From: Halobacteriales archaeon QS_3_64_16
GTDB taxonomy: Archaea > Halobacteriota > Halobacteria > Halobacteriales > Halococcaceae
Direction: 5' to 3'
Length of the DNA stretch: 64,000 nucleotides
Assembly (NCBI GenBank): GCA_003021705.1
Contig: PXRJ01000015.1
Location: 1 to 64,000 of the forward strand
Every line of letters starts with the position of its first letter. Position 1 is the first letter of the stretch. The notes beneath the pieces are model-generated. The model was given only the letters and a program-made list of their open reading frames with translations. It was not told where the DNA came from and did no database searches. A program made the translations under genes and the position numbers. Positions 49,630 through 62,040 of this stretch are shown here, one piece after another.

Positions 49630-50205
49630 CTACTCTCCATCGAGTGCTTGGCCACCGACGAACAGCTCGGTGCCGGCCTCACGGCTCTCGGCGAAGCCCT
49701 CGCGGTACTCCATGAGCTGAAAGAGAACGCCAGTCGGGTTCCGCGGTGAGACGAACGTCTCGCGCCAGTCCTCTCCGTCCGCCCGATCGACGACCTCCAT
49801 CCCAGCCCCTTCGATCCGATCGATCGCCCGGTCCAGATCCCCGACCTCGAGCGTGATGTGGTGTAAGCCCGGCCCGTAGCGATCGAGGAAGTCGGTGAGG
49901 AAACTCCTATCCTCACTCTCACTACCACCATTACCATCACCACCGCTACTGGCGTCCTCGCCGTCGGTCTCACCGCCACTCGTCCCACCAGGTTCGATCA
50001 GCTCGAGCCGGGAACCGTTCCCGAGTCGGTAGTACGCCCAGGTAAAGTCCTCTAAGGGTTCCTCGAGGAACTTCTCCGCGCCGAAGGCCAATAGTACCGG
50101 TTCGGCCGCCTCGATCGATTCGACGGCGATCCCCACGTGATCGACGCGCATCGAAACGTCACCGTTCCCCGCCGTCTTCCCTGTCCCAGTGTCGTCGGCT
50201 CGCAT
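49630..50205 (-). CDS. VOC-fold protein, methylmalonyl-CoA epimerase-like
   Basis: Two VOC modules: MRVDHVGIAVESIEAAEPVL and PGLHHITLEVGDLDRAIDRI, with closing GVLFQLMEYREG. Metal ligands expected in epimerases are His in RVDHVG and LHHITL and Glu in RLELIEP or near the end, so they are present. A roughly 30-residue Gly/Ser/Asp/Glu insert separates the halves. The start is taken at ATG 50205, about 25 bases below a TATTATG box; ATG 50151 would also keep the fold. If correct, it would link propionyl-CoA carboxylase and mutase reactions, but neither is nearby. Confidence 0.75.
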   Translation of the reverse strand: MRADDTGTGKTAGNGDVSMRVDHVGIAVESIEAAEPVLLAFGAEKFLEEPLEDFTWAYYRLGNGSRLELIEPGGTSGGETDGEDASSGGDGNGGSESEDRSFLTDFLDRYGPGLHHITLEVGDLDRAIDRIEGAGMEVVDRADGEDWRETFVSPRNPTGVLFQLMEYREGFAESREAGTELFVGGQALDGE

Positions 50206-50326
50206 GGTGTCCTCGACTGGGGCCGGCGACATAATACCCGAGACCGATCGCTCGTGATTCGTCCCTGCAGTATTCGGAGTGGCTCCACACCGATTGTCCT
50301 CGGTCGGTGCCTACCGTCGGAGAACG

Positions 50327-51686: not shown

Positions 51687-52568
51687 GTGCTCGACTTTCT
51701 GGAGCTACCGGAACGACCGGAAAAGCCCCGCGAGACGGGTCTCACCCACGTTCTCGATCCGGGACTGGGCACAGGGCAGGCATGCGATCGCTTGGATGCC
51801 TGTGGGGAGTTCGTCGACATCGTCAAACTCGGCTGGGGCACCGGCTACGTAACCGAGTGTCTTCCCGAGAAAGTCGCGCTGTATCAGGAATACGGTATTC
51901 CCGTCTGTTTCGGCGGGACACTGTTCGAACTCGCCGCGTTGCAGGGGCAGGTCGAGGAGTACGTCGACGCGCTCGCCGATCTCGGCGTCGACCACGTCGA
52001 GGTCTCGACGGGCGTCATCGAGATGGATCACGACCGGAAATGCGAGCTGATCGACGACCTCTCCGAGGACTTCGTCGTGCTATCCGAAATCGGTCGCAAG
52101 GACTCCGAGGAGGGACTGTCCCCCCAGGAGTGGAGCACACAGGCCGCCCGCGAACTCGACGCGGGCGCCTGGAAGGTAGTTACCGAAGGGCGATCGAGCG
52201 GTACCACCGGCGTCTACGACGCCGAGGGCGGCGTTCGTTCGGAACTGATCGACGGGCTCACCGCCGAGATCGCGGCCGATCGGATCCTCTTCGAAGCACC
52301 ACGGAAAGACCAACAGATCTGGTTCATCGAGGAACTAAGTCCTTCGGTGAACCTCGGCAACATCGACATGACCGACGTCATCCCCTTAGAGACCCTTCGT
52401 CAGGGGTTACGAAGCGATACCCTACATATGATTCACTCCGATGAGAGAACGACTCACGAAGAACCGACCGACGGAAAAACGACCAGCGCCGAGACGCCGT
52501 CGAACGAGACCCACGACGAGGAGAAGCCGCTCCGAAGCGCGCCTCGAACGGGAGGTCACCGTCGATGA
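51687..52568 (+). CDS. comA: Phosphosulfolactate synthase ComA
   Basis: Adds sulfite to phosphoenolpyruvate to give (2R)-phosphosulfolactate, the first step of coenzyme M synthesis in some methanogens. It is also used by organisms without coenzyme M to make sulfolactate. The 293 residues form a TIM barrel: KPRETGLTHVLDPGLGTGQA, VDIVKLGWGTGYVTE, IPVCFGGTLFELAALQGQVE, VEVSTGVIEMDHDRK and SEIGRKDSE. A roughly 45-residue acidic Thr/Glu tail is extra. GTG 51687 is chosen because it opens LDFLELPERPEKP; the upstream frame is Arg-rich. It overlaps the next gene by ATGA. Confidence 0.92.
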   Translation: MLDFLELPERPEKPRETGLTHVLDPGLGTGQACDRLDACGEFVDIVKLGWGTGYVTECLPEKVALYQEYGIPVCFGGTLFELAALQGQVEEYVDALADLGVDHVEVSTGVIEMDHDRKCELIDDLSEDFVVLSEIGRKDSEEGLSPQEWSTQAARELDAGAWKVVTEGRSSGTTGVYDAEGGVRSELIDGLTAEIAADRILFEAPRKDQQIWFIEELSPSVNLGNIDMTDVIPLETLRQGLRSDTLHMIHSDERTTHEEPTDGKTTSAETPSNETHDEEKPLRSAPRTGGHRR

Positions 52569-52975
52569 TTGAGAACGAACACATCTTCCATCTCGCGATC
52601 CCAACCGACGACCTCGATCGCGCCGAGGAGTTCTACGTCGAGGGCATGGGCGCGGAGAAAGCCCGGCGCTACGAGGACCGTCTGACGCTGAACTTCTACG
52701 GCGATCAGATCGTCTGTCACAAAGCCCCGGCCGAGGAGATCGTCGACGAGGAGGACGTACGGATGTATCCCCGGCACTTCGGCGTGACGATGACCGACGA
52801 GGAGGACTTCGAGGCACTGCTCGAAAGCGCTCGCGAGAGGGACCTCTCGTTTTTCCAGGAGCCGATGATCCGCTTCGAGGGCGAGAGCGACGAGCACCGG
52901 ACCTTCTTCCTCCAGGACCCTTCCAATAACCTACTGGAATTCAAGTGGTACAACAACCAGGAGCAGATGTACTGA
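52565..52975 (+). CDS. VOC-superfamily protein between comA and comB
   Basis: A 136-residue glyoxalase/dioxygenase-fold protein. The sequence starts MIENEHIFHLAIPTDDLDRA, has PRHFGVTMTDEEDFEAL in the middle and TFFLQDPSNNLLEFKWYNN at the end. His in IFHLAI, His in RHFGV and Glu in LLEFKW occupy the usual metal-binding places. It overlaps comA by 4 bases and comB by 1 (TGATG), so it is made with them. Its role in sulfolactate metabolism is unknown: an epimerase, a lyase or a chaperone for an unstable intermediate are possible. That is inference from the operon. Confidence 0.88.
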   Translation: MIENEHIFHLAIPTDDLDRAEEFYVEGMGAEKARRYEDRLTLNFYGDQIVCHKAPAEEIVDEEDVRMYPRHFGVTMTDEEDFEALLESARERDLSFFQEPMIRFEGESDEHRTFFLQDPSNNLLEFKWYNNQEQMY

Positions 52976-53988
52976 TGGACGTTACAGTTCTTTCCGCTTC
53001 GGACGCCGAGGAGGCCCTTACCGAAGAGGACTGTGCGGTAGTTATCGACGCCCTGCGCGCGAGCGCAACGGCGATCGCCCTGCTCGAATCCGGCGCGAAA
53101 AGCGTCGTGCCGGTCGCAGGCGACGGGGCCGATCGTTTCGGCGAGGAAGTCCTCAAGGTCGGCGAGCACCACGGCGAGCGCATCGAGGGCTTCGATCTGG
53201 GGAACTCCCCTCTCGCGGTCCGCGAGCGAGCCGATCTCTTCGACGGCGAGGACGTCGTGCTCCGAACGACCAATGGCACGCGATGTGTCGAGCGCGTTGA
53301 CGGCGCGGGCACCGTCGTGATGGGCTCGCTGCTCAACGCCGAAGCACTGATCGAGACCTGTCGCGACCGCCTGTCCGCCGAGTCCCGCGTCGTCTTCGTG
53401 CCGGCCGGCCGGCGGGGCGACCCGGCCCCAGAGGACACCTACACGGCGGTTGCCCTCGCTCGTCGCCTCCAGGCGGCACTCGGCGATCCAGTGACGGCGA
53501 GCGCCCCCGAAGGCGACCTGTCCGAGCCAATCACGGAGGCAGGCACGGACGCGAATACGGGTACGAACACGGTGGCGACCGCGGCTCCCGCGACGGCCGG
53601 GGGCTCGGAGCCCGCCGCCGAATCCGGTGAGGCAACGAGTGCCGAAACCGGCGATCTCCGACCGGCCGAGGAGGTCTTCGTCGAGTCCGATACCGGCCGC
53701 TTCCTCGCCTCGATGAATTGGGAAGAAGACGTGCACTTTTGTGCACAGGCAGACGTCTTTGGGGCGGTGCCGGTGCTCGAGGACGGCCGGTTCGTTGACG
53801 GCCACCCCCCCCCGGGATCGGCCACCAGCGGCGCGGACCGAACGGAAAATGCGACCACGGAGGTTCCGGACGAAGAGGGGTCTAGCGAACCCGATACCTC
53901 ACACTTGGACGACGTCGATCCGAGCTGTGGCTGTGTCGGGGTCTGGGAACACCTCTCCGAGCAGCGCAGCGCGAACGGCGATCGATGA
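52975..53988 (+). CDS. comB: 2-phosphosulfolactate phosphatase ComB
   Basis: Mg-dependent phosphatase that releases sulfolactate from ComA's product. The 337 residues hold CAVVIDALRASATAIALLES, GFDLGNSPLAVRE, VLRTTNGTRCVERVDGAGTV and EDTYTAVALARRL, the family signature. It is much longer than the usual 230-240 residues, because an acidic Ala/Thr/Gly/Glu insert of about 70 residues sits between GDPVTA and FVESDTGRF, and another acidic tail follows. The core is intact. ATG 52975 overlaps the VOC stop. No comC or comDE follows, so the pathway in the window stops at sulfolactate. Confidence 0.9.
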   Translation: MDVTVLSASDAEEALTEEDCAVVIDALRASATAIALLESGAKSVVPVAGDGADRFGEEVLKVGEHHGERIEGFDLGNSPLAVRERADLFDGEDVVLRTTNGTRCVERVDGAGTVVMGSLLNAEALIETCRDRLSAESRVVFVPAGRRGDPAPEDTYTAVALARRLQAALGDPVTASAPEGDLSEPITEAGTDANTGTNTVATAAPATAGGSEPAAESGEATSAETGDLRPAEEVFVESDTGRFLASMNWEEDVHFCAQADVFGAVPVLEDGRFVDGHPPPGSATSGADRTENATTEVPDEEGSSEPDTSHLDDVDPSCGCVGVWEHLSEQRSANGDR

Positions 53989-54092
53989 TCTCTCCCTCTC
54001 TGTACCGGCGCCGTCCCCACGACGATTCCGAGCGTTCGGCAGCGATGCTGGGAGAAAAGGGGTATATTGACCCAGTGTGTGAAAGGAATGCG

Positions 54093-54100
54093 TTTTTAAC
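54093..54100 (+). promoter_or_regulatory. Probable TATA box of the tctCBA operon
   Basis: TTTTTAAC in GC-rich DNA between comB and tctC. It would give a transcript with a roughly 100-base leader. A second AT-rich GGTATATTG lies about 30 bases before it. Read-through from comB is also possible. Confidence 0.4.
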
Positions 54101-54225
54101 AGTAGGCAATCAGGGTTACAGTCGAGAAGGCGGGGAAGGGGAGCACGAGCAGACCGCAAGCAGCGGGTGAGCCGCCTCGGCAGTCGAGTTCCTTCTCCGT
54201 CCCTATCGACGACGATAGCGACCCC

Positions 54226-55389
54226 ATGATGAACGAGAACGATCACAACGACTCCGACCCGACCGCGGAGCGCGACGAAGCATCGACCCGACGGCGATTC
54301 CTGCAGGCCTCGACCATCGCGGGCGTCGGCGCGCTCGCCGGCTGCGTCGGCGGCGGTGGTATCAGTTCCGGCAGTGATAGCAGCGGCGACGGTGGCAACG
54401 GCGGCGGTGGCGGTAGCGGCGGCTCGACCGACGGTAACAGTAGTAGCAGTGGCGGCGGTGGCTACCCCTCGAAACCGATCACCGTCGTCGTTCCCTGGTC
54501 ACAGGGCGGCGGCACCGATCGCTCGACGCGTGCGCTCACGCCGACGTGGTCGAACGTCATCGGCGGGAACTTCGCCGTCCAGAACTATTCCGGCGGGTCC
54601 ACACAGATCGGCGGCGAGCAGATGTACAACGCCACCCCGAACGGTTACAACGTCGGGATGTGGAACCTCCCGCAGATGCCCGCGACCTGGATCTTCCAGG
54701 ACGCGTCCTATCGCGCCGATGACTTCGATTACATCGGTACCAATCACGCCGATCCCACCCTCTGGATCGCGCCGAAGGGACGGTCCTACGGAGATATGAA
54801 CGAGTTCCTCGAGTACGCCCGAAAGAACGGTGGAGACGTCACGGTTGGACTCACCTCCGCGGTCGGGAACACCGCCCTCTCGGCGCTTTTGGTGAAAGAC
54901 ACCTACGACCTGGAGTTTCAGTTGGTCAACCTCGAGGGGGGTTCTTCGGTCCGGAAGGCGATCCTAGCCGGGGACGTCGATGCCGCAGTTAACCAACCCT
55001 GGGCGTTCAACCCTGCGAACAAGGGTAAAGCGACCGGGCTGGGGACCCACACCGAAGAATCCCAGAGCCTCTGGCCGAGCGTCCCGAGTTTCGACGAACT
55101 CGGGCTCTCGGAGCTGCCCTACCCCGAACCCGCGACGGTCCAATGGAAGCTGATGTTGGCCCCGAGCGGCCTGCAGGAACAGTACCCCGATCGCTACGAG
55201 ACACTGGTTGCGACCTACGAGAAGGCGATGATGGCCGATCCCTACCGAAAGCGGGCCGAGGACCTCTCGGGGCTCAGCGAGATCATCGAGTACAACCCGC
55301 CCGAGGAGACCCAGAAGATCGTTGAGGAGAACGTGACGAAGATGAACGAGTACAAGCCGCTTTTCGACCAGTACCTCTCGGGCAACTGA
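54226..55389 (+). CDS. tctC: Tripartite tricarboxylate transporter substrate-binding protein (TctC-like Tat lipoprotein)
   Basis: Extracytoplasmic receptor that captures a carboxylate or sulfonate and delivers it to TctAB. The 387 residues start with an acidic leader, then twin arginines and a lipobox (STRRRFLQASTIAGVGALAG, then Cys), and a Gly/Ser/Asp linker of about 50 residues. The mature domain has SKPITVVVPWSQGGGTDRST, VGLTSAVGNTALSALLVKDT and AGDVDAAVNQPWAFNPANKG, characteristic of Bug receptors. Substrate is not fixed; TctC relatives bind citrate, tricarballylate, terephthalate or sulfolactate. Position next to comB suggests a sulfonate. Confidence 0.9.
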   Translation: MMNENDHNDSDPTAERDEASTRRRFLQASTIAGVGALAGCVGGGGISSGSDSSGDGGNGGGGGSGGSTDGNSSSSGGGGYPSKPITVVVPWSQGGGTDRSTRALTPTWSNVIGGNFAVQNYSGGSTQIGGEQMYNATPNGYNVGMWNLPQMPATWIFQDASYRADDFDYIGTNHADPTLWIAPKGRSYGDMNEFLEYARKNGGDVTVGLTSAVGNTALSALLVKDTYDLEFQLVNLEGGSSVRKAILAGDVDAAVNQPWAFNPANKGKATGLGTHTEESQSLWPSVPSFDELGLSELPYPEPATVQWKLMLAPSGLQEQYPDRYETLVATYEKAMMADPYRKRAEDLSGLSEIIEYNPPEETQKIVEENVTKMNEYKPLFDQYLSGN

Positions 55390-55410
55390 TCGGTTCGAGA
55401 GTTCTCCGAA

Positions 55411-56034
55411 ATGACAAACACACGATTTCCGGAACTCGCGTTCGGAGCCGGTGGCTATCGCATCGCACTTGACCCGGGCGAAGCGCTCTTCCCGGGCCTC
55501 GTTGCCCTGTTCGGGGCGTACTACTACCTCGATACCCGGGGGCTGCCCGGCCAATCGGTGTTGTACGCCCATCCCCTATTGTACGTCACGCTCGCGCTCG
55601 CCCTCCTCGTGGTCGCCTTCCACATCGTCGATATCGAGCCGGAAGAGAGGGACGACACAGCGTCGAGTGAGAGTGGTGACAGCGACGTCAAGGGAGGGAG
55701 CACCGAACGGAAAGGGGAGAGCCGCGCGATGTCGGCCGTCGAGGCGGCAGATAGAGACGCCGAGAGCAGGGACGAACGAACCGATACTGACCGGTATTTC
55801 AACCGACATACCGCCGCGGGCCTGGTGGTAGCGAGCGTCGCGTACTTCCAACTCGTCCAGTTGCTAGGATTCCTCCTCCCGTCGGTCGCTTTCTGTGGCG
55901 TCGTCCTCTACATGTTTGGCGAGCGAAACTTCTCCGCGCTCGTCGGGTACTCGATCGGGTTCTCGGCCGTCGTCTACGCCGTGTTCGGCTACTGGCTCAA
56001 CGTTCCGATCCAACCGCTCGTGGTGCCGATCTGA
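55411..56034 (+). CDS. tctB: Tripartite tricarboxylate transporter small membrane subunit (TctB-like)
   Basis: The 207 residues have two helices in the first third (GEALFPGLVALFGAYYYLDT, LLYVTLALALLVVAFHIVDI) and two or three in the last (LVVASVAYFQLVQLLGFLLP, LVGYSIGFSAVVYAVFGYWL). Between them is a 60-residue acidic Ser/Glu/Lys loop, an expansion over bacterial TctB. Order tctC-tctB-tctA with 21- and 3-base gaps is the standard operon. The subunit is required for transport together with TctA. Confidence 0.85.
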   Translation: MTNTRFPELAFGAGGYRIALDPGEALFPGLVALFGAYYYLDTRGLPGQSVLYAHPLLYVTLALALLVVAFHIVDIEPEERDDTASSESGDSDVKGGSTERKGESRAMSAVEAADRDAESRDERTDTDRYFNRHTAAGLVVASVAYFQLVQLLGFLLPSVAFCGVVLYMFGERNFSALVGYSIGFSAVVYAVFGYWLNVPIQPLVVPI

Positions 56035-56037
56035 CCG

Positions 56038-57609
56038 ATGATCGATGCAAGCCTTCCGCTACTGATCGATCTCGTTCGTAGTGTGGCACCTGACCCGTCG
56101 ATGCCCGTCGCTTTCGTCAGCGGCGTCATGAGCGAGGGTCTCGGTGTACTATTCCAGCCGATCGTCCTGTTGGCGGTCGTACTCGGAACGGCACTCGGTA
56201 TCGTCTTCGGTGCGATCCCGGGGTTTTCGGCGACCATGACGCTTATTCTCCTGACGCCGGTGACGATACCCCTCTCGCCGGTCGTCGCGCTTATTCTGCT
56301 CGTCTCGGCGTATGGTGGGGCGGTCTATGGAGGCTCGATCCCGGCGATTCTCATCAACACGCCTGGCGCACCGGGATCGGTCGTCACCTGCTGGGACGGC
56401 TACGAACTCACCCGGCAGGGACGGGCGGTCTATGCCCTAGCTGTCTCGGCGCTGGTCTCCGGAATTGCCGGGCTCATCGCCGCCAGCACGCTACTACTAG
56501 CGGCTCCCTTCATCGCGGAGTTCGCGCTTTCCTTCGGTGGCCCGGAGTTGTTCCTACTATCGGCGTTCGCGCTGACGATTATCCCGGCCGCGAAGGACGC
56601 TTCGCTCACGAAGGGGCTGCTCGCCGGCGCGTTCGGGCTATTGATCGGCACTGTCGGCAACGACCCACAGCTCGCCCGCCCGCGGGCGACCTTCGGCCTC
56701 ACAATTCTCAGGGACGGCTTCGATTACATTGTCGTCCTCATCGGCCTATTCGTCTTCACTGAGATGATCCGACTGGCGATGCGTGGTTCGATGGTCAACA
56801 CCGGCGGGGAGGGTGCTACCGGGGCCGGGGGCTACGCGCAGACGATCGAGGGGATTCGAGACGTCCTCGCACGGCCGGTCGATTTCCTCCGGGCAACGGC
56901 GATCGGCACCCTCGTCGGCTCACTCCCCGGAGCCGGGGCGGACGTGGCGAACTTCGTCTCGTATAACGAGGCCCAGCGGTGGGCGAGCGAGGAGGTGGCC
57001 GATCGGTACGGAACGGGGATCATCGAGGGCGTCATCGCCGCCGACGCGAGCAACAATGCAACCCAAGGCGGCGCGCTCATCCCCACGCTCACGCTCGGGA
57101 TCCCCGGCAGCGGCTCGACGGCGGCGTTGCTCGGCGCGCTCGCGATCCACGGCATCCAACCTGGGCCGGGGATCTTCCAGCGATCCGGCCCGCTCGTCTA
57201 CGCGATGATCTTCTCGCTGTTTCTGGGGAACGCCCTCATCTTGGTCTATGGACTGAGTGGCTCGCGGTACTTCGGGAAGGTAGCGTACGTCCCGATCCGC
57301 TACATCATCCCAGGGGTCGTGATCCTCGCGGTTGTCGGCGCGCTGGCTGTTCGCAACGCACCCTTCGACATCCTCGTGATGTTCGCTGCGGGCCTGCTGG
57401 GACTAGTCTTTCTCAAGTACGACTACCCGCTCGTCAGCCCCGTGCTCGGCGTCATCCTCGGCTCGATCGCGGAGACAGGCTTCATCCAGGGGTGGTTGCT
57501 CAACCAGCAGGACCCGATAGCCTTTCTCACCAACAGCGCCGTCTCGGTCGGTTTGCTGGTTCTGATCGTACTCTCGCTCGCGATCACGTTCGTCAAGAAC
57601 TACCGCTGA
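56038..57609 (+). CDS. tctA: Tripartite tricarboxylate transporter large membrane subunit (TctA)
   Basis: The 523-residue channel subunit with about 12 helices. Family landmarks are GIVFGAIPGFSATMTLILLT, YGGAVYGGSIPAILINTPGA and PGSVVTCWDGYELTRQGRA, then GTLVGSLPGAGADVANFVSY and NNATQGGALIPTLTLGIPGS. The two Gly/Pro motif regions (near residues 65 and 290) are the conserved substrate-path segments. It is the last gene of the tct operon; the ALDH gene converges with it about 100 bases on. Confidence 0.93.
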   Translation: MIDASLPLLIDLVRSVAPDPSMPVAFVSGVMSEGLGVLFQPIVLLAVVLGTALGIVFGAIPGFSATMTLILLTPVTIPLSPVVALILLVSAYGGAVYGGSIPAILINTPGAPGSVVTCWDGYELTRQGRAVYALAVSALVSGIAGLIAASTLLLAAPFIAEFALSFGGPELFLLSAFALTIIPAAKDASLTKGLLAGAFGLLIGTVGNDPQLARPRATFGLTILRDGFDYIVVLIGLFVFTEMIRLAMRGSMVNTGGEGATGAGGYAQTIEGIRDVLARPVDFLRATAIGTLVGSLPGAGADVANFVSYNEAQRWASEEVADRYGTGIIEGVIAADASNNATQGGALIPTLTLGIPGSGSTAALLGALAIHGIQPGPGIFQRSGPLVYAMIFSLFLGNALILVYGLSGSRYFGKVAYVPIRYIIPGVVILAVVGALAVRNAPFDILVMFAAGLLGLVFLKYDYPLVSPVLGVILGSIAETGFIQGWLLNQQDPIAFLTNSAVSVGLLVLIVLSLAITFVKNYR

Positions 57610-57713
57610 CCGTCCTCTCTTCTCTCACCTTCTTCTTCCCTCCTCCTTCTTTCTCCTCGTCTTCGAACGATCATCGATTGCCTTCGGGCAGGGGCTGACT
57701 CGATGCCTGACTC

Positions 57714-59150
57714 CTACTCTCCGTGCTCGTCGAGATACGAGCCGAACAGGTCCTCTTCGCTCGGGGGGTCGGGCTCGATCGTCTCGGCGACGGTCGTCGT
57801 ATTGAGGAAGTGAGTGTAATCGAGGTTTTCGTCGAGCTGATTTCCGCCCCAAGTACCTGCACCCATCGAGAGGGTGACGTTCAGCCCGTTCTCGAAGCTG
57901 CCGCCGTTGCCGACACACTGGGGCTGGTTGATCAGCAGGCGACAGACGTCGATTGCGTGTCCGACCCGCTCGGTATGGCTCTCGTCGGTGGTATGCAATC
58001 CACAGGAGTGGCCGCTACCCTCGTAATCGAGGATCTCCTGGGTGGTCTCGAGTGCCCCCTCGAAGTCCGGTGCTGCGAAGGTCGTGAGCACGACCGAGAT
58101 CTTCTCGCCTGAAAGCGGGTAGTCCGGGCCGATGCCCTGGCCTTCGACGAGGAAGAACTCGGCCTCCCGGGCGGCCGCGCTCTCCAGGCCGGCGGTCGCG
58201 GCGATCTCTTCGGGCGGCTGGCCCGTAACCTCGCCGCTGAGCGACCCGTGCCCGTCGGGGAACATCGTTACCTCCAGTTTCTCGCGCTCCTTCTCATCAC
58301 ATAGATAGCCGCCCGCGTCTTCGAGGGCTGCGATGGCCTCCTCGTAGACCGACTCGACGATCACCGCCGAATTGTCGCTCGAACAGCTCGTCGCGTAATC
58401 GAACGTCTTGCTCGTTGCGATCCGCTCGGCGGTCGCCGCCAAATCGGCGCTCTCGTCGATGATCGAGACCGCGTTGCCTTCTCCGACGTTGTAGTTCGGC
58501 GTCCCCGATCGTTCGCCCCGGCGGACGTTGTTCGCCGACCCGGTCACCTGGAGCAGATCAACCCGATCCATCAGCTCGTAGGTCTTTGCTTTGCTCACGG
58601 GCGGGGGCACCATCTGTACCAGGTCGGTCGGTGCACCCACTTTCTCGAGCTCCGTATGAACGTACTCGAGGACCTTCTCACAGGTCTCCAGACCGCTCGG
58701 CGAGGGTGAGAGGACCACCGCGTTCTTACCCTTGAGCGCCATCATGGCGATGTTCGTCGGTGTGGCACCCGGGTTCGTTGACGGAACGACCGCACCGACG
58801 ACGCCGACCGGTTTCGCGATCTCGGTGATGCCATCCTCCTCCTCGCGATCGATCACGCCGACAGAGGGTTCGCCGAGCAGATCGTTGAGCGTCCCGAAGG
58901 TCTTCCGGCGTTTCTTCGCGGTCTTGTCCGTGACATTTCCGAGCCCGGTAGTCTCGACGGCGATCTCGGAGATCTCCTCGGCGCGCTCCTCCTCGTAGAT
59001 CGCCCAGGCGACCGCCTGTACGAGTTCGTCTACCTGTTCCTGGTCGTAGTCAGCGATCGCGCCCATCGCGCGTTCGCCGCGTTCGATCACCGTCTCGATG
59101 ACGTCCTCGGGTTCCTGGGATTCCTGCCGCTCCTTGGACTCCAGGGTCAT
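57714..59150 (-). CDS. Acylating aldehyde dehydrogenase (EutE/PduP/SauS type)
   Basis: Oxidises an aldehyde to an acyl-CoA or the reverse. The 478-residue protein has KPVGVVGAVVPSTNPGATPT, MALKGKNAVVLSPSPSG and the catalytic cysteine in DYATSCSSDNSAVIVES. That Cys-Ser-Ser context matches CoA-acylating enzymes rather than ordinary ALDH. EutE, PduP and the sulfoacetaldehyde dehydrogenase SauS belong here. The ATG 59150 is preferred: it lies about 30 bases below GGTATAC, and an upstream TTG would be weak. It converges with tctA and is divergent from the MFS gene. Substrate is unproven; the comA-comB context makes sulfoacetaldehyde plausible. Confidence 0.88.
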   Translation of the reverse strand: MTLESKERQESQEPEDVIETVIERGERAMGAIADYDQEQVDELVQAVAWAIYEEERAEEISEIAVETTGLGNVTDKTAKKRRKTFGTLNDLLGEPSVGVIDREEEDGITEIAKPVGVVGAVVPSTNPGATPTNIAMMALKGKNAVVLSPSPSGLETCEKVLEYVHTELEKVGAPTDLVQMVPPPVSKAKTYELMDRVDLLQVTGSANNVRRGERSGTPNYNVGEGNAVSIIDESADLAATAERIATSKTFDYATSCSSDNSAVIVESVYEEAIAALEDAGGYLCDEKEREKLEVTMFPDGHGSLSGEVTGQPPEEIAATAGLESAAAREAEFFLVEGQGIGPDYPLSGEKISVVLTTFAAPDFEGALETTQEILDYEGSGHSCGLHTTDESHTERVGHAIDVCRLLINQPQCVGNGGSFENGLNVTLSMGAGTWGGNQLDENLDYTHFLNTTTVAETIEPDPPSEEDLFGSYLDEHGE

Positions 59151-59421
59151 AACCTGGTCGTTCGACCCCTCGACGGGTATACCTTTGGCATGCAGATCCT
59201 CCAACGCTCGAGTCGCTCGGAGTTTCAACCTCCGTATACCGAACTACGCTGTTCCTCGTCGTGGCTGAAGCGGGACTCTGTTGTCCATGGATCGAGCGAA
59301 GTGCTTTTCCTCGCCGGCCGTCGCATCGATGTATGCTCGACTACTTTAGTGCCGTCGCTCGCTCGTCTGACGATCGGCCGATAGCGCCGGTATCGCGTGC
59401 GGTATCGATAGATCCCCCGCG

Positions 59422-60663
59422 GTGAGCGGTCGGCAGCGCTTCGAGGGCCCCTGGGGGCTCGTCGCGGGAAGCTGGCTGCTCGCCGCCGCGTTGAACGCCT
59501 ACATTATCGTCCCGGCGAGCTTCCTTCCGGTTCTCTCCGAGCAGTTGGCCATCGACGCGACGGCCGCCAGCTGGATCGTGAGCGCGCTCTTTGCGGTCGG
59601 CGTCCTCGTCGGCATCCCCGCCGGTATCGTCCTCGATCGCGTCGACAACCGGTGGGCGGCGACGCTCGCAGCAGTCAGCCTGTTCGCCGCCTGTCTCTGG
59701 AGCTGGCAGGCCGCCCGAGGAGGATCGTACTGGTCGCTGCTCGCCGCGCGGGCGTTCGCCGGGCTCTCCTTCCCGCTGATCTGGAGCGCCTGTATCAATC
59801 TCATCGGCCGGACCTTCGACGCCACGAACCGGGCGAGTGCCGTCGGGGTTTTCACGACGAGCGCTCCGGCCGGCTTTGCCGTCGGCCAGTTCACCGGCCC
59901 GCTGATCGTCGCCCGCTTCGGGTGGGCCGCTCCCTTCGCGGTCTTTTCGATCCCGGTCGCCCTCTCCGGGGCGGCCTTTCACCTCACGAGCCGCAGCGCC
60001 AGTCGCGCCGATCGCGCCGCTCGCGCCGATGGTGGCACGGCCGACTCCGATTCCAAACCCGAACCTCAGCCCCAGCTCGCGGAGTTCAAACGCGTCCTCA
60101 CCGACCCCAATGTCCTCTCGACCGCGGGGATGGGTTTCGTGGCCTACTCGGCCTATGTCTTTTTCAATAGCTGGATGCCGACCTACCTCACCGAGGAGCT
60201 CGGCCTCTCGCTCGCAGCGAGTGGGCTGCTCGTCGCGGTGTTTCCCGCGATCGGCGTGCTCTCGCGCAGCGGCAGTGGCTTCATCTCCGATCGCTTCCTC
60301 TCCCAGCGCCGCCGGCCGATCGTCTCTGTCGCCTTCGCCGCCACGCTCCCGTTGGTGGGCGTGATCGCTCTTACCGAACTCACCCCGCTGGTCGCCGGCG
60401 CCTTGCTGCTCGCCGGGTTGTTCATCCAACTGGGAATCGGCATCCTCTTTACCTACGTCCAGGAGCTCGTCGAGCCGACGGTCACCGCGACCGCGCTCGC
60501 GGCGCTGACGACGATGAGCTCCTTCGGCTCCTTCTCCGCGCCGGTGATCGCCGGCTACCTCATCGAATCGACTCGCACCTACTTCGCAGCGTTTGGCTAT
60601 GCGGCCCTCGTCGTCGGCCTCGGCGTCGTACTCGCCTACTACAGTCCGGAACCGAACCGATAG
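59422..60663 (+). CDS. MFS transporter (anion or organic acid carrier)
   Basis: A 413-residue carrier starting at GTG 59422 with about 12 helices. Motif A variants appear after helix 2 (IPAGIVLDRVDNRWAATLAA) and helix 8 (SGFISDRFLSQRRRP). A charged loop with Arg/Ala (ASRADRAARADGGTADSDSK) separates the halves. The overall build is like oxalate/formate or CynX-type carriers. In bacteria the sulfoacetate carrier SauU is an MFS protein next to SauS; here an MFS gene is divergent from a SauS-like gene, so sulfonate or another organic anion is plausible. Substrate unproven. Confidence 0.85.
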   Translation: MSGRQRFEGPWGLVAGSWLLAAALNAYIIVPASFLPVLSEQLAIDATAASWIVSALFAVGVLVGIPAGIVLDRVDNRWAATLAAVSLFAACLWSWQAARGGSYWSLLAARAFAGLSFPLIWSACINLIGRTFDATNRASAVGVFTTSAPAGFAVGQFTGPLIVARFGWAAPFAVFSIPVALSGAAFHLTSRSASRADRAARADGGTADSDSKPEPQPQLAEFKRVLTDPNVLSTAGMGFVAYSAYVFFNSWMPTYLTEELGLSLAASGLLVAVFPAIGVLSRSGSGFISDRFLSQRRRPIVSVAFAATLPLVGVIALTELTPLVAGALLLAGLFIQLGIGILFTYVQELVEPTVTATALAALTTMSSFGSFSAPVIAGYLIESTRTYFAAFGYAALVVGLGVVLAYYSPEPNR

Positions 60664-60825
60664 CGACGGCGACCAGCCGATCGCCCTCCCGTGTGCTCGG
60701 CCCAGGACTAACGCTCGAGACGAACCCGTGAGAATCGACGGCCGAGGCTCGATCGACGCCAGTGAGGGGTCCGAAAGCGCCCGATCAAGGGAAAGGGCCT
60801 TCCGGCAAGCGTGGGCACTCGACCC

Positions 60826-62040
60826 ATGAGCCAGTCCAACCAGTCGGATCAGTCGGGCCAACCCCTCGATGGCATCGAAGTGATCGATCTCGGCCAGATC
60901 TATAATGGCCCGTACTGCTCACTCGTTCTCGCGTGTCTCGGCGCGGACGTCATCAAGGTCGAACCGCCCTTCGGCGAGCCGCTTCGCTCCCGGGTCGAGG
61001 AGGGCGAACCCCCCGAGCTGGTGATGCTCAACTCCTCGAAGCGCGACGTCACACTGAATCTCAAATCCGACCGAGGCATGGAGATCTTCAAGGAACTCGT
61101 CCGGGACGCCGATGTCCTCGTCGAGAACTACGCGGTGGGGACGATGGAAAAACTCGGGCTTGGCTACGAGACCCTCTCCGAGATGAATCCCGAGTTGATC
61201 TACGCCCACGGTAGCGGCTTCGGTGACTCGGGGCCCAAGAGCGAGCGCCGCGCGATGGACCTCATCATCCAGGCGACCGGCGGCGTCATGGAAGGCACCG
61301 GTTTCGAGGACGGCCCCCCGGTGAAGACGGGCATGGCCCCGGGCGACTTCTTAGGGGGCATTCACCTCGCGACCGGCGTGCTCGGCGCACTCTTCCAGCG
61401 CGAGCGCACGGGCGAGGGCCAGTTCGTCGAGGCGAGCATGTACGAGGCGGTCGTTCCGGCGCTGCTCTCCCAGCTCGGTTCCTACTACAAGGACGAGGAG
61501 GTCCCCCCGCGGACGGGCAACCGCCACAGCTCGCTCGCGAAATGTCCTTATAACGCCTACGAGACCGAGGAAGGCTATATCGCGATCCTCTGTGCTTCCG
61601 ACGAGCACTGGCGGACACTGCTGAAAGCGATCGGCCGCGAGGACCTGCTCGGCGACGAACGCTTCGATACCAACGTGAAACGCCTCGACCACATGGCCGA
61701 GATCGATACGATGATCGAGGAGTGGACCCGCGACCGGGATCGCCACGAGTTAGAGGACGGACTCATCGCCGCCGGCGTGCCCTGTGGGGCGGTCCAGACC
61801 ATCGAGGAGGTCATCCACGATCCACACCTCGAAGAGCGGGGGATGATGACCGAGGTCGAGCACCCCGACTTCCCTGAGGGCATCCGAGTCCCCGGGACGC
61901 CGATCCGCTTTTCGGACGCGGCCCTGCCCGAGATCGAACGCGCCCCCCGAAAGGGCGAGGACAACGACGCGGTGTATGGAGAGAAGGTCGGGCTCTCCGA
62001 AGCGGAGATCGAAGCGCTTGAAGCCGACGGTGTGATTTAG
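60826..62040 (+). CDS. Class III CoA-transferase (CaiB/BaiF family)
   Basis: Transfers CoA between carboxylic acids through an enzyme-bound anhydride. The 404 residues have the N-terminal DGIEVIDLGQIYNGPYCSLV and CLGADVIKVEPPFGEPLR, then NSSKRDVTLNLKSDRGMEIF. The catalytic Asp is in RRAMDLIIQATGGVMEGTGF, the usual place, and a closing domain follows (NRHSSLAKCPYNAYETEEGY, GVPCGAVQTIEEVIHDPH). It lies downstream of the MFS gene, same strand, with 162 bases between. With an acylating ALDH near, a CoA ester of the same acid is the likely substrate. ATG 60826 is preferred to a GTG five codons earlier. Confidence 0.93.
   Translation: MSQSNQSDQSGQPLDGIEVIDLGQIYNGPYCSLVLACLGADVIKVEPPFGEPLRSRVEEGEPPELVMLNSSKRDVTLNLKSDRGMEIFKELVRDADVLVENYAVGTMEKLGLGYETLSEMNPELIYAHGSGFGDSGPKSERRAMDLIIQATGGVMEGTGFEDGPPVKTGMAPGDFLGGIHLATGVLGALFQRERTGEGQFVEASMYEAVVPALLSQLGSYYKDEEVPPRTGNRHSSLAKCPYNAYETEEGYIAILCASDEHWRTLLKAIGREDLLGDERFDTNVKRLDHMAEIDTMIEEWTRDRDRHELEDGLIAAGVPCGAVQTIEEVIHDPHLEERGMMTEVEHPDFPEGIRVPGTPIRFSDAALPEIERAPRKGEDNDAVYGEKVGLSEAEIEALEADGVI

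Follow-up and report, generated by a model that had tools for sequence, protein, structure and literature searches.

The 64,000-base window analysed here, positions 1-64000 of the 87645-base contig C15 of Halobacteriales archaeon QS_3_64_16 (genome G000; 2.83 Mb in 70 contigs, 79% complete), holds at 51687-62040 nine genes that fall into two neighbouring units: a predicted sulfoacetate-utilisation (sau) module and a comA-VOC-comB trio. In the sau module, the tripartite tricarboxylate transporter (TTT) TctCBA would import sulfoacetate, a CaiB-type coenzyme A (CoA)-transferase would convert it to sulfoacetyl-CoA with CoA taken from an acyl-CoA donor, and the acylating aldehyde dehydrogenase SauS would turn sulfoacetyl-CoA into sulfoacetaldehyde; we consider this order of import, activation and reduction highly probable. 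In relatives, Xsc would then yield sulfite and acetyl phosphate; Pta or AckA would salvage the acetyl group, and the sulfite would probably be oxidised by a molybdopterin/NrfD complex. ComA and ComB are predicted to form (R)-sulfolactate from phosphoenolpyruvate (PEP) and sulfite, and our best guess for the VOC protein is that it acts on a phosphosulfolactate or sulfolactate intermediate. That the locus combines the sau module with a sulfolactate-making trio, leaving aside any role in sulfite capture, seems reasonably likely. An earlier sequence-only reading had treated the nine genes as a locus for C2 and C3 sulfonates; C2 import and use are supported and C3 synthesis is plausible, whereas the idea of one joined pathway is unsupported.

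The gene set itself is as that reading described, with all nine frames complete and in the same order, each closed by a single terminal stop, with Pfam assignments that agree and co-occurrence counts that exceed chance. Its comparison of the aldehyde dehydrogenase with SauS was borne out: the protein scores 655 bits against the SauS equivalog NF047625 (curated cut-off 600) and alone among the nine proteins passes an NCBIfam equivalog cut-off, the others staying at Pfam level. Its candidate catalytic Cys256 sits in the aldehyde dehydrogenase motif YATSCSSD. The score tests the family, from which the activity of a CoA-acylating sulfoacetaldehyde dehydrogenase is predicted. Among 394 genomes of the haloarchaeal class, SauS exceeds the cut-off in eight: G000; its same-genus sister G343 (Halobacteriales archaeon QH_8_64_26), which carries the whole region; G258; G228; G244; G327; G029; and the plasmid-bearing Haloterrigena sp. 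KLK7 (G199). CoA-transferases that share at least 69% identity with the window copy occur in exactly these eight genomes, at most ~13.5 kb from sauS, and the next-best, at 61-63% identity, lie in genomes without SauS above the cut-off; the naive hypergeometric p of 7e-17 for this coincidence, like the p value given below for the trio, treats related genomes as independent, which counts against taking it at face value. Tct genes stand at the sauS locus in all eight, with the proviso that tctB was not called separately in G258 and that tctA lies beyond the examined stretch in G029. Copies of tctA adjoining SauS elsewhere are 68-77% identical to that of the window, copies of tctC beside SauS/CaiB are 52-63% identical, and in G228, G244 and G199 the genes form one contiguous run, CaiB-SauS-TctA-TctB-TctC. 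As judged from sequence and gene context, SauS, the CoA-transferase and TctCBA are one haloarchaeal sulfoacetate module, in keeping with the earlier proposal that the tct, dehydrogenase and CoA-transferase genes serve C2-sulfonate use.

Formation of sulfoacetyl-CoA is assigned to the CoA-transferase by position and by exclusion. The protein belongs to PF02515 and carries a candidate catalytic Asp174 in the motif GDFLGG, and no ATP-dependent sulfoacetate-CoA ligase of the SauT or SauCD type was found among the genes of the window locus, the rest of the genome not having been searched; a haloarchaeal class III CoA-transferase probably stands in for the bacterial ATP-dependent ligases. Because it is SauS and not comAB that the tct genes accompany, the likely ligand of TctC is sulfoacetate. 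Sulfolactate, which the sequence-only reading had mentioned as a cargo of some TTT transporters, is disfavoured, as tct genes accompany SauS and CaiB also where the trio is absent. The major facilitator superfamily (MFS) carrier of the locus has a counterpart of 62% identity in the haloarchaeon G211, where it lies ~6 kb away from xsc.

In related haloarchaea, Xsc and Pta are found at the same loci as genes of the module; Xsc is present in three of the eight SauS genomes (G343, G327 and G029) and on a Halomarina plasmid. In G327, SauS, Xsc, Pta, NrfD/molybdopterin, CaiB, TctCBA and TauE genes lie in this order within ~23 kb, the redox genes encoding a 4Fe-4S/NrfD protein and a molybdopterin oxidoreductase and the last gene a carrier of the TauE type; Xsc scores 672 bits, slightly below the cut-off of 676. 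SauS, Xsc (671 bits, same cut-off), Pta, CaiB and Tct genes also neighbour one another in G029. The Xsc of G343 passes with 702 bits and lies on a different contig from the sau genes, together with AckA, an iron-type alcohol dehydrogenase (Fe-ADH) and the NrfD/molybdopterin redox pair; searches of 11 further haloarchaeal genomes found no counterpart of the acetate kinase gene that adjoins xsc there (L100:11227-12414). The plasmid of Halomarina sp. PSR21 (L187, NZ_CP119993.1 366780-396207) brings together SauS, Fe-ADH, Xsc (701 bits, above the cut-off), Pta, CaiB, TctCBA, class III aminotransferase and TRAP genes, and the redox pair is also there by sequence similarity. This unannotated island is predicted to serve the use of sulfoacetate, and probably also of taurine (class III aminotransferase, TRAP) and isethionate (Fe-ADH). 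Three relatives of the family that lack SauS, namely G211, G158 and G255 (L101, L102 and L105), carry Xsc with Pta, accompanied in G211 and G158 by Fe-ADH and a nearby aminotransferase, which suggests taurine or isethionate use. A gene for a Thi4-family thiazole synthase recurs beside xsc/sau loci (L101:11978-12904, L068:2376-3326, L100:6997-7962, L205:6419-7384); next to xsc it perhaps supplies thiamine diphosphate for Xsc, and in G000 it persists without xsc.

Several observations weigh against the proposed pathway. No Xsc above the cut-off was found in G258, G228, G244 and G199, which are 96-99% complete, or in G000 at 79% completeness, and the same five genomes have no NrfD-type partner. 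At the site of the G343 Xsc island, G000 keeps the alcohol dehydrogenase and Thi4 flanks, with ABC transporter genes between them. The CoA-transferase reaches 322 bits against its best NCBIfam equivalog, well below the cut-off of 700, and the CoA-transferase substrate, the TctC ligand and the VOC reaction are predictions. Because neither an Xsc above the cut-off nor an NrfD-type partner is present, desulfonation is not evidenced in the trio-bearing genomes other than G343; and since both are missing from the Xsc-less sau species, and the G000 site is without Xsc, either sulfoacetaldehyde goes elsewhere in these species or the module has a further role as well.

The four Xsc-less genomes of high completeness would also suit a SauS/CaiB/Tct set that uses some other acid, for example a C2-C4 carboxylate, with the SauS label over-called. 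The NCBIfam comparison shows a likeness of the CoA-transferase to succinyl-CoA:mesaconate and oxalate enzymes, and the closest solved relative of the window dehydrogenase is a succinate-semialdehyde enzyme. Such a role is nonetheless distinctly improbable, given that SauS exceeds its curated cut-off and that the G000 protein is 91% identical to that of the Xsc-bearing G343 and 69-73% identical to the Xsc-adjoining copies of G327, G029 and Halomarina. It is also unlikely that Xsc-less users follow an undescribed sulfoacetaldehyde route which, with a VOC step on (phospho)sulfolactate in the trio, makes up a joined new pathway serving to retrieve sulfite or to connect C3 with C2 sulfonates.

The comA-VOC-comB trio was found in four of the 394 genomes (G000, G343, G258 and G228), with order and overlaps kept in G343 and G228 and order kept in G258. 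The VOC model matches exactly these four genomes, and in each the gene lies between comA and comB. The VOC protein aligns with 3rri of Alicyclobacillus acidocaldarius, described in the PDB only by its glyoxalase family, at 157.7 bits, with the four residues listed in Table 1 in common; its predicted fold also matches 3rri, in a weak model (mean predicted local distance difference test score, pLDDT, 65) that adds little beyond the sequence. ComA finds its best solved match in Bacillus subtilis ComA (1u83; E 4.6e-57) and keeps the core motifs common to 1u83 and 9cm1. In the named genome collection, the G343 protein is followed by bacterial sequences as the closest relatives (Actinomycetota, Myxococcota, Balneolaceae and others; 45-56% identity). 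The four trio ComAs cluster with those of bacteria and methanogens, and the common haloarchaeal ComA falls outside this group (support 90/87). Only this separation of two kinds is used here; each tree contains a few sequences of the common haloarchaeal kind that had been taken from the wrong strand (L012 and L022 in one, L013 in the other). ComB scores 158 bits against PF04029 (cut-off 26) and matches 2yyv (E 7.3e-26); its acidic insert is missing from the G228 and G258 homologues. By analogy with known ComA and ComB chemistry, the trio probably makes sulfolactate from PEP and sulfite, against which it must be said that both proteins fall below equivalog cut-offs, ComA with 243 bits for the archaeal TIGR03849 (cut-off 280) and ComB with at best 118 bits (cut-off 235).

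ComA as such is more widespread, in 59 of the 394 genomes, mostly as the common haloarchaeal kind, which is ~28% identical to the window ComA (747-base match). That this kind is the same as the window ComA was rejected, as it forms a separate clade, and its function probably differs. Genes of the common kind lie near MmgE/PrpD genes in the three cases looked at, from G244, G343 and Haladaptatus (L104:207-1043, L070:9468-10301 and L203:5986-6810).

The trio is a separate, fixed unit, coupled to the sau module by occurrence. All four trio genomes are SauS-positive, compared with eight of 394 overall (naive p 7e-8, weaker as independent evidence because the genomes span two haloarchaeal families only), and the trio lies ~5-6 kb from sauS in G000 and G343 and ~11-12 kb from it in G258. 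The expected recurrence of tct, dehydrogenase and CoA-transferase genes around comA-comB thus held in part: the three are together everywhere, and the trio occurs with SauS in four of four genomes and within ~13 kb of it in three, but comA-comB is confined to half of the sau genomes. Its absence from G244, G199, G029 and G327, and its position on a different contig from sauS in G228, speak against a shared function. We tentatively propose that the trio captures sulfite during organosulfonate breakdown, the sulfolactate being kept or exported, a suggestion that stands no better than functional independence of the trio from sau. A sulfolactate osmolyte or counter-ion would be an example, with the closeness of the units owed to arrival in the same gene-gain region; this we rate a serious contender, if short of even. 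Besides the unlinked G228 copy and the four sau genomes without a trio, the rare and patchy distribution of both units favours it, as do bacterial ComA genes of the same broad kind, including those of halophilic Balneolaceae, near which no SauS, TctCBA or CaiB homologues occur within the flanks examined; the coincidence with SauS in every trio genome, across two families, argues the other way. No VOC or ComB gene was found beside comA in 79 bacterial loci with hidden Markov models from four haloarchaeal sequences, which a diverged ComB could escape, and no sulfonate link was seen near VOC homologues on bacterial plasmids in the three neighbourhoods looked at.

A single biosynthetic route is very unlikely. 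It would oxidise sulfolactate from ComA and ComB and decarboxylate the product to sulfoacetaldehyde by ComC- and ComDE-like enzymes, with SauS and the CoA-transferase reversed and sulfoacetate exported. SauS-type enzymes do run toward sulfoacetate in the bacterial sulfo-TK variant (PMC12890257), several sau genomes are without Xsc, and G000 has a ComC-family Ldh_2 gene on C23 and ComD/ComE-like neighbours on C58. The latter score 127 and 137 bits, below the cut-off, and this sulfopyruvate decarboxylase-like alpha/beta pair (L098:3757-4852) stands among sugar-acid-type genes and occurs in G000 alone of 12 genomes searched. ComD-like genes are absent from G343, G258 and G228 (present in one of four trio genomes) and Ldh_2 from G343 and G228 (present in two of four); moreover, TTT systems are known as importers and the module co-occurs with Xsc in four relatives. 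One pathway leading from ComA through SauS is not upheld, since ComC- and ComDE-family genes are not common to the trio genomes, and coenzyme M synthesis, which the sequence-only reading had not expected, is rejected on the same ground. The window contains no comC, comDE or xsc, whose genome-wide relatives are on other contigs or absent; suyAB and cuyA were not searched specifically.

Bacterial sulfoacetate pathways, such as that of Cupriavidus necator with its ligase SauT, likewise employ an acylating SauS and pass from the acid through a CoA thioester to sulfoacetaldehyde, and Xsc is downstream in some haloarchaeal relatives. The bacteria activate sulfoacetate by an AMP- or ADP-forming ligase, whereas the haloarchaea would use a class III CoA-transferase; the host here is archaeal, and the importer is a TTT system rather than only an MFS carrier. 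The bacterial ligase is of the AMP-binding type in Sulfitobacter, Paracoccus and Caballeronia, and SauCD belongs to the pathway of Bilophila wadsworthia (PMC12890257). Azospirillum/Indioceanicola plasmids (NZ_CP032324, NZ_CP030128) resemble the haloarchaeal loci in having TctC, TctB, TctA and SauS consecutively, accompanied by Pta, Xsc and a molybdopterin/DmsC-type complex; they differ in that a SucCD-like pair of CoA ligase genes stands where the haloarchaea have the CoA-transferase, and in a SauS of ~50% identity. The ComA and ComB families are shared with methanogen coenzyme M biosynthesis (ComA, ComB, ComC, ComDE), whereas the trio genomes share no ComC or ComDE, carry a VOC gene inserted between the two com genes, and showed no other coenzyme M-linked genes. 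In bacterial coenzyme M clusters, such as that on the Mycolicibacterium chubuense NBB4 plasmid, a ComA of the same broad clade is followed by lyase and pyridoxal phosphate enzyme genes rather than by VOC and comB. B. subtilis ComA differs in lineage and context, and we know of no VOC partner for it.

If the proposed module is correct, archaea of hypersaline waters join the consumers of sulfoacetate and, unlike the known bacterial pathways, activate it by CoA-transferase instead of ATP-dependent ligase. Among the open-access papers searched, none was found to describe the metabolism of sulfoacetate or sulfoacetaldehyde in haloarchaea, subscription literature lying outside the search. Haloterrigena sp. 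KLK7 and Halomarina sp. PSR21 are cultured carriers of the module, and the conserved comA-VOC-comB unit offers a testable new function for the VOC protein.

Table 1. Genes of the predicted organosulfonate locus, with window positions
Gene and assignment	Position	Strand	Features
comA, phosphosulfolactate synthase, bacterial/methanogen kind	51687-52568	+	PF02679 280 bits, above the gathering score; GTG start; C-terminal acidic tail
VOC-fold metalloenzyme candidate	52565-52975	+	PF00903 (Glyoxalase) 44 bits; conserved H9, H52, H71, E125
comB, 2-phosphosulfolactate phosphatase	52975-53988	+	PF04029 (2-ph_phosp) 158 bits, two stretches; low-complexity acidic insert and tail
tctC, substrate-binding protein of TTT system	54226-55389	+	PF03401 64 bits; lipoprotein-like N-terminus
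tctB, small membrane subunit	55411-56034	+	PF07331 56 bits
tctA, large membrane subunit	56038-57609	+	PF01970 430 bits
sauS, predicted CoA-acylating sulfoacetaldehyde dehydrogenase, 478 aa	57714-59150	-	NF047625 655 bits; Aldedh 68 bits
MFS carrier, probably accessory sulfonate transporter	59422-60663	+	PF07690 (MFS_1) 157 bits
Class III (CaiB-type) CoA-transferase, proposed sulfoacetate CoA-transferase	60826-62040	+	PF02515 (CoA_transf_3) 403 bits

Within the locus, comA overlaps the VOC gene by 4 bases and the VOC gene overlaps comB by 1 base; a gap of 237 bases separates comB from tctC, with 21 bases between tctC and tctB and 3 between tctB and tctA. The sauS gene converges on tctA, and the MFS and then the CoA-transferase gene follow on the plus strand. 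A second VOC gene lies 5' of comA at 49630-50232 on the minus strand and shows a distant likeness to methylmalonyl-CoA epimerase (46.6 bits; cut-off 115).

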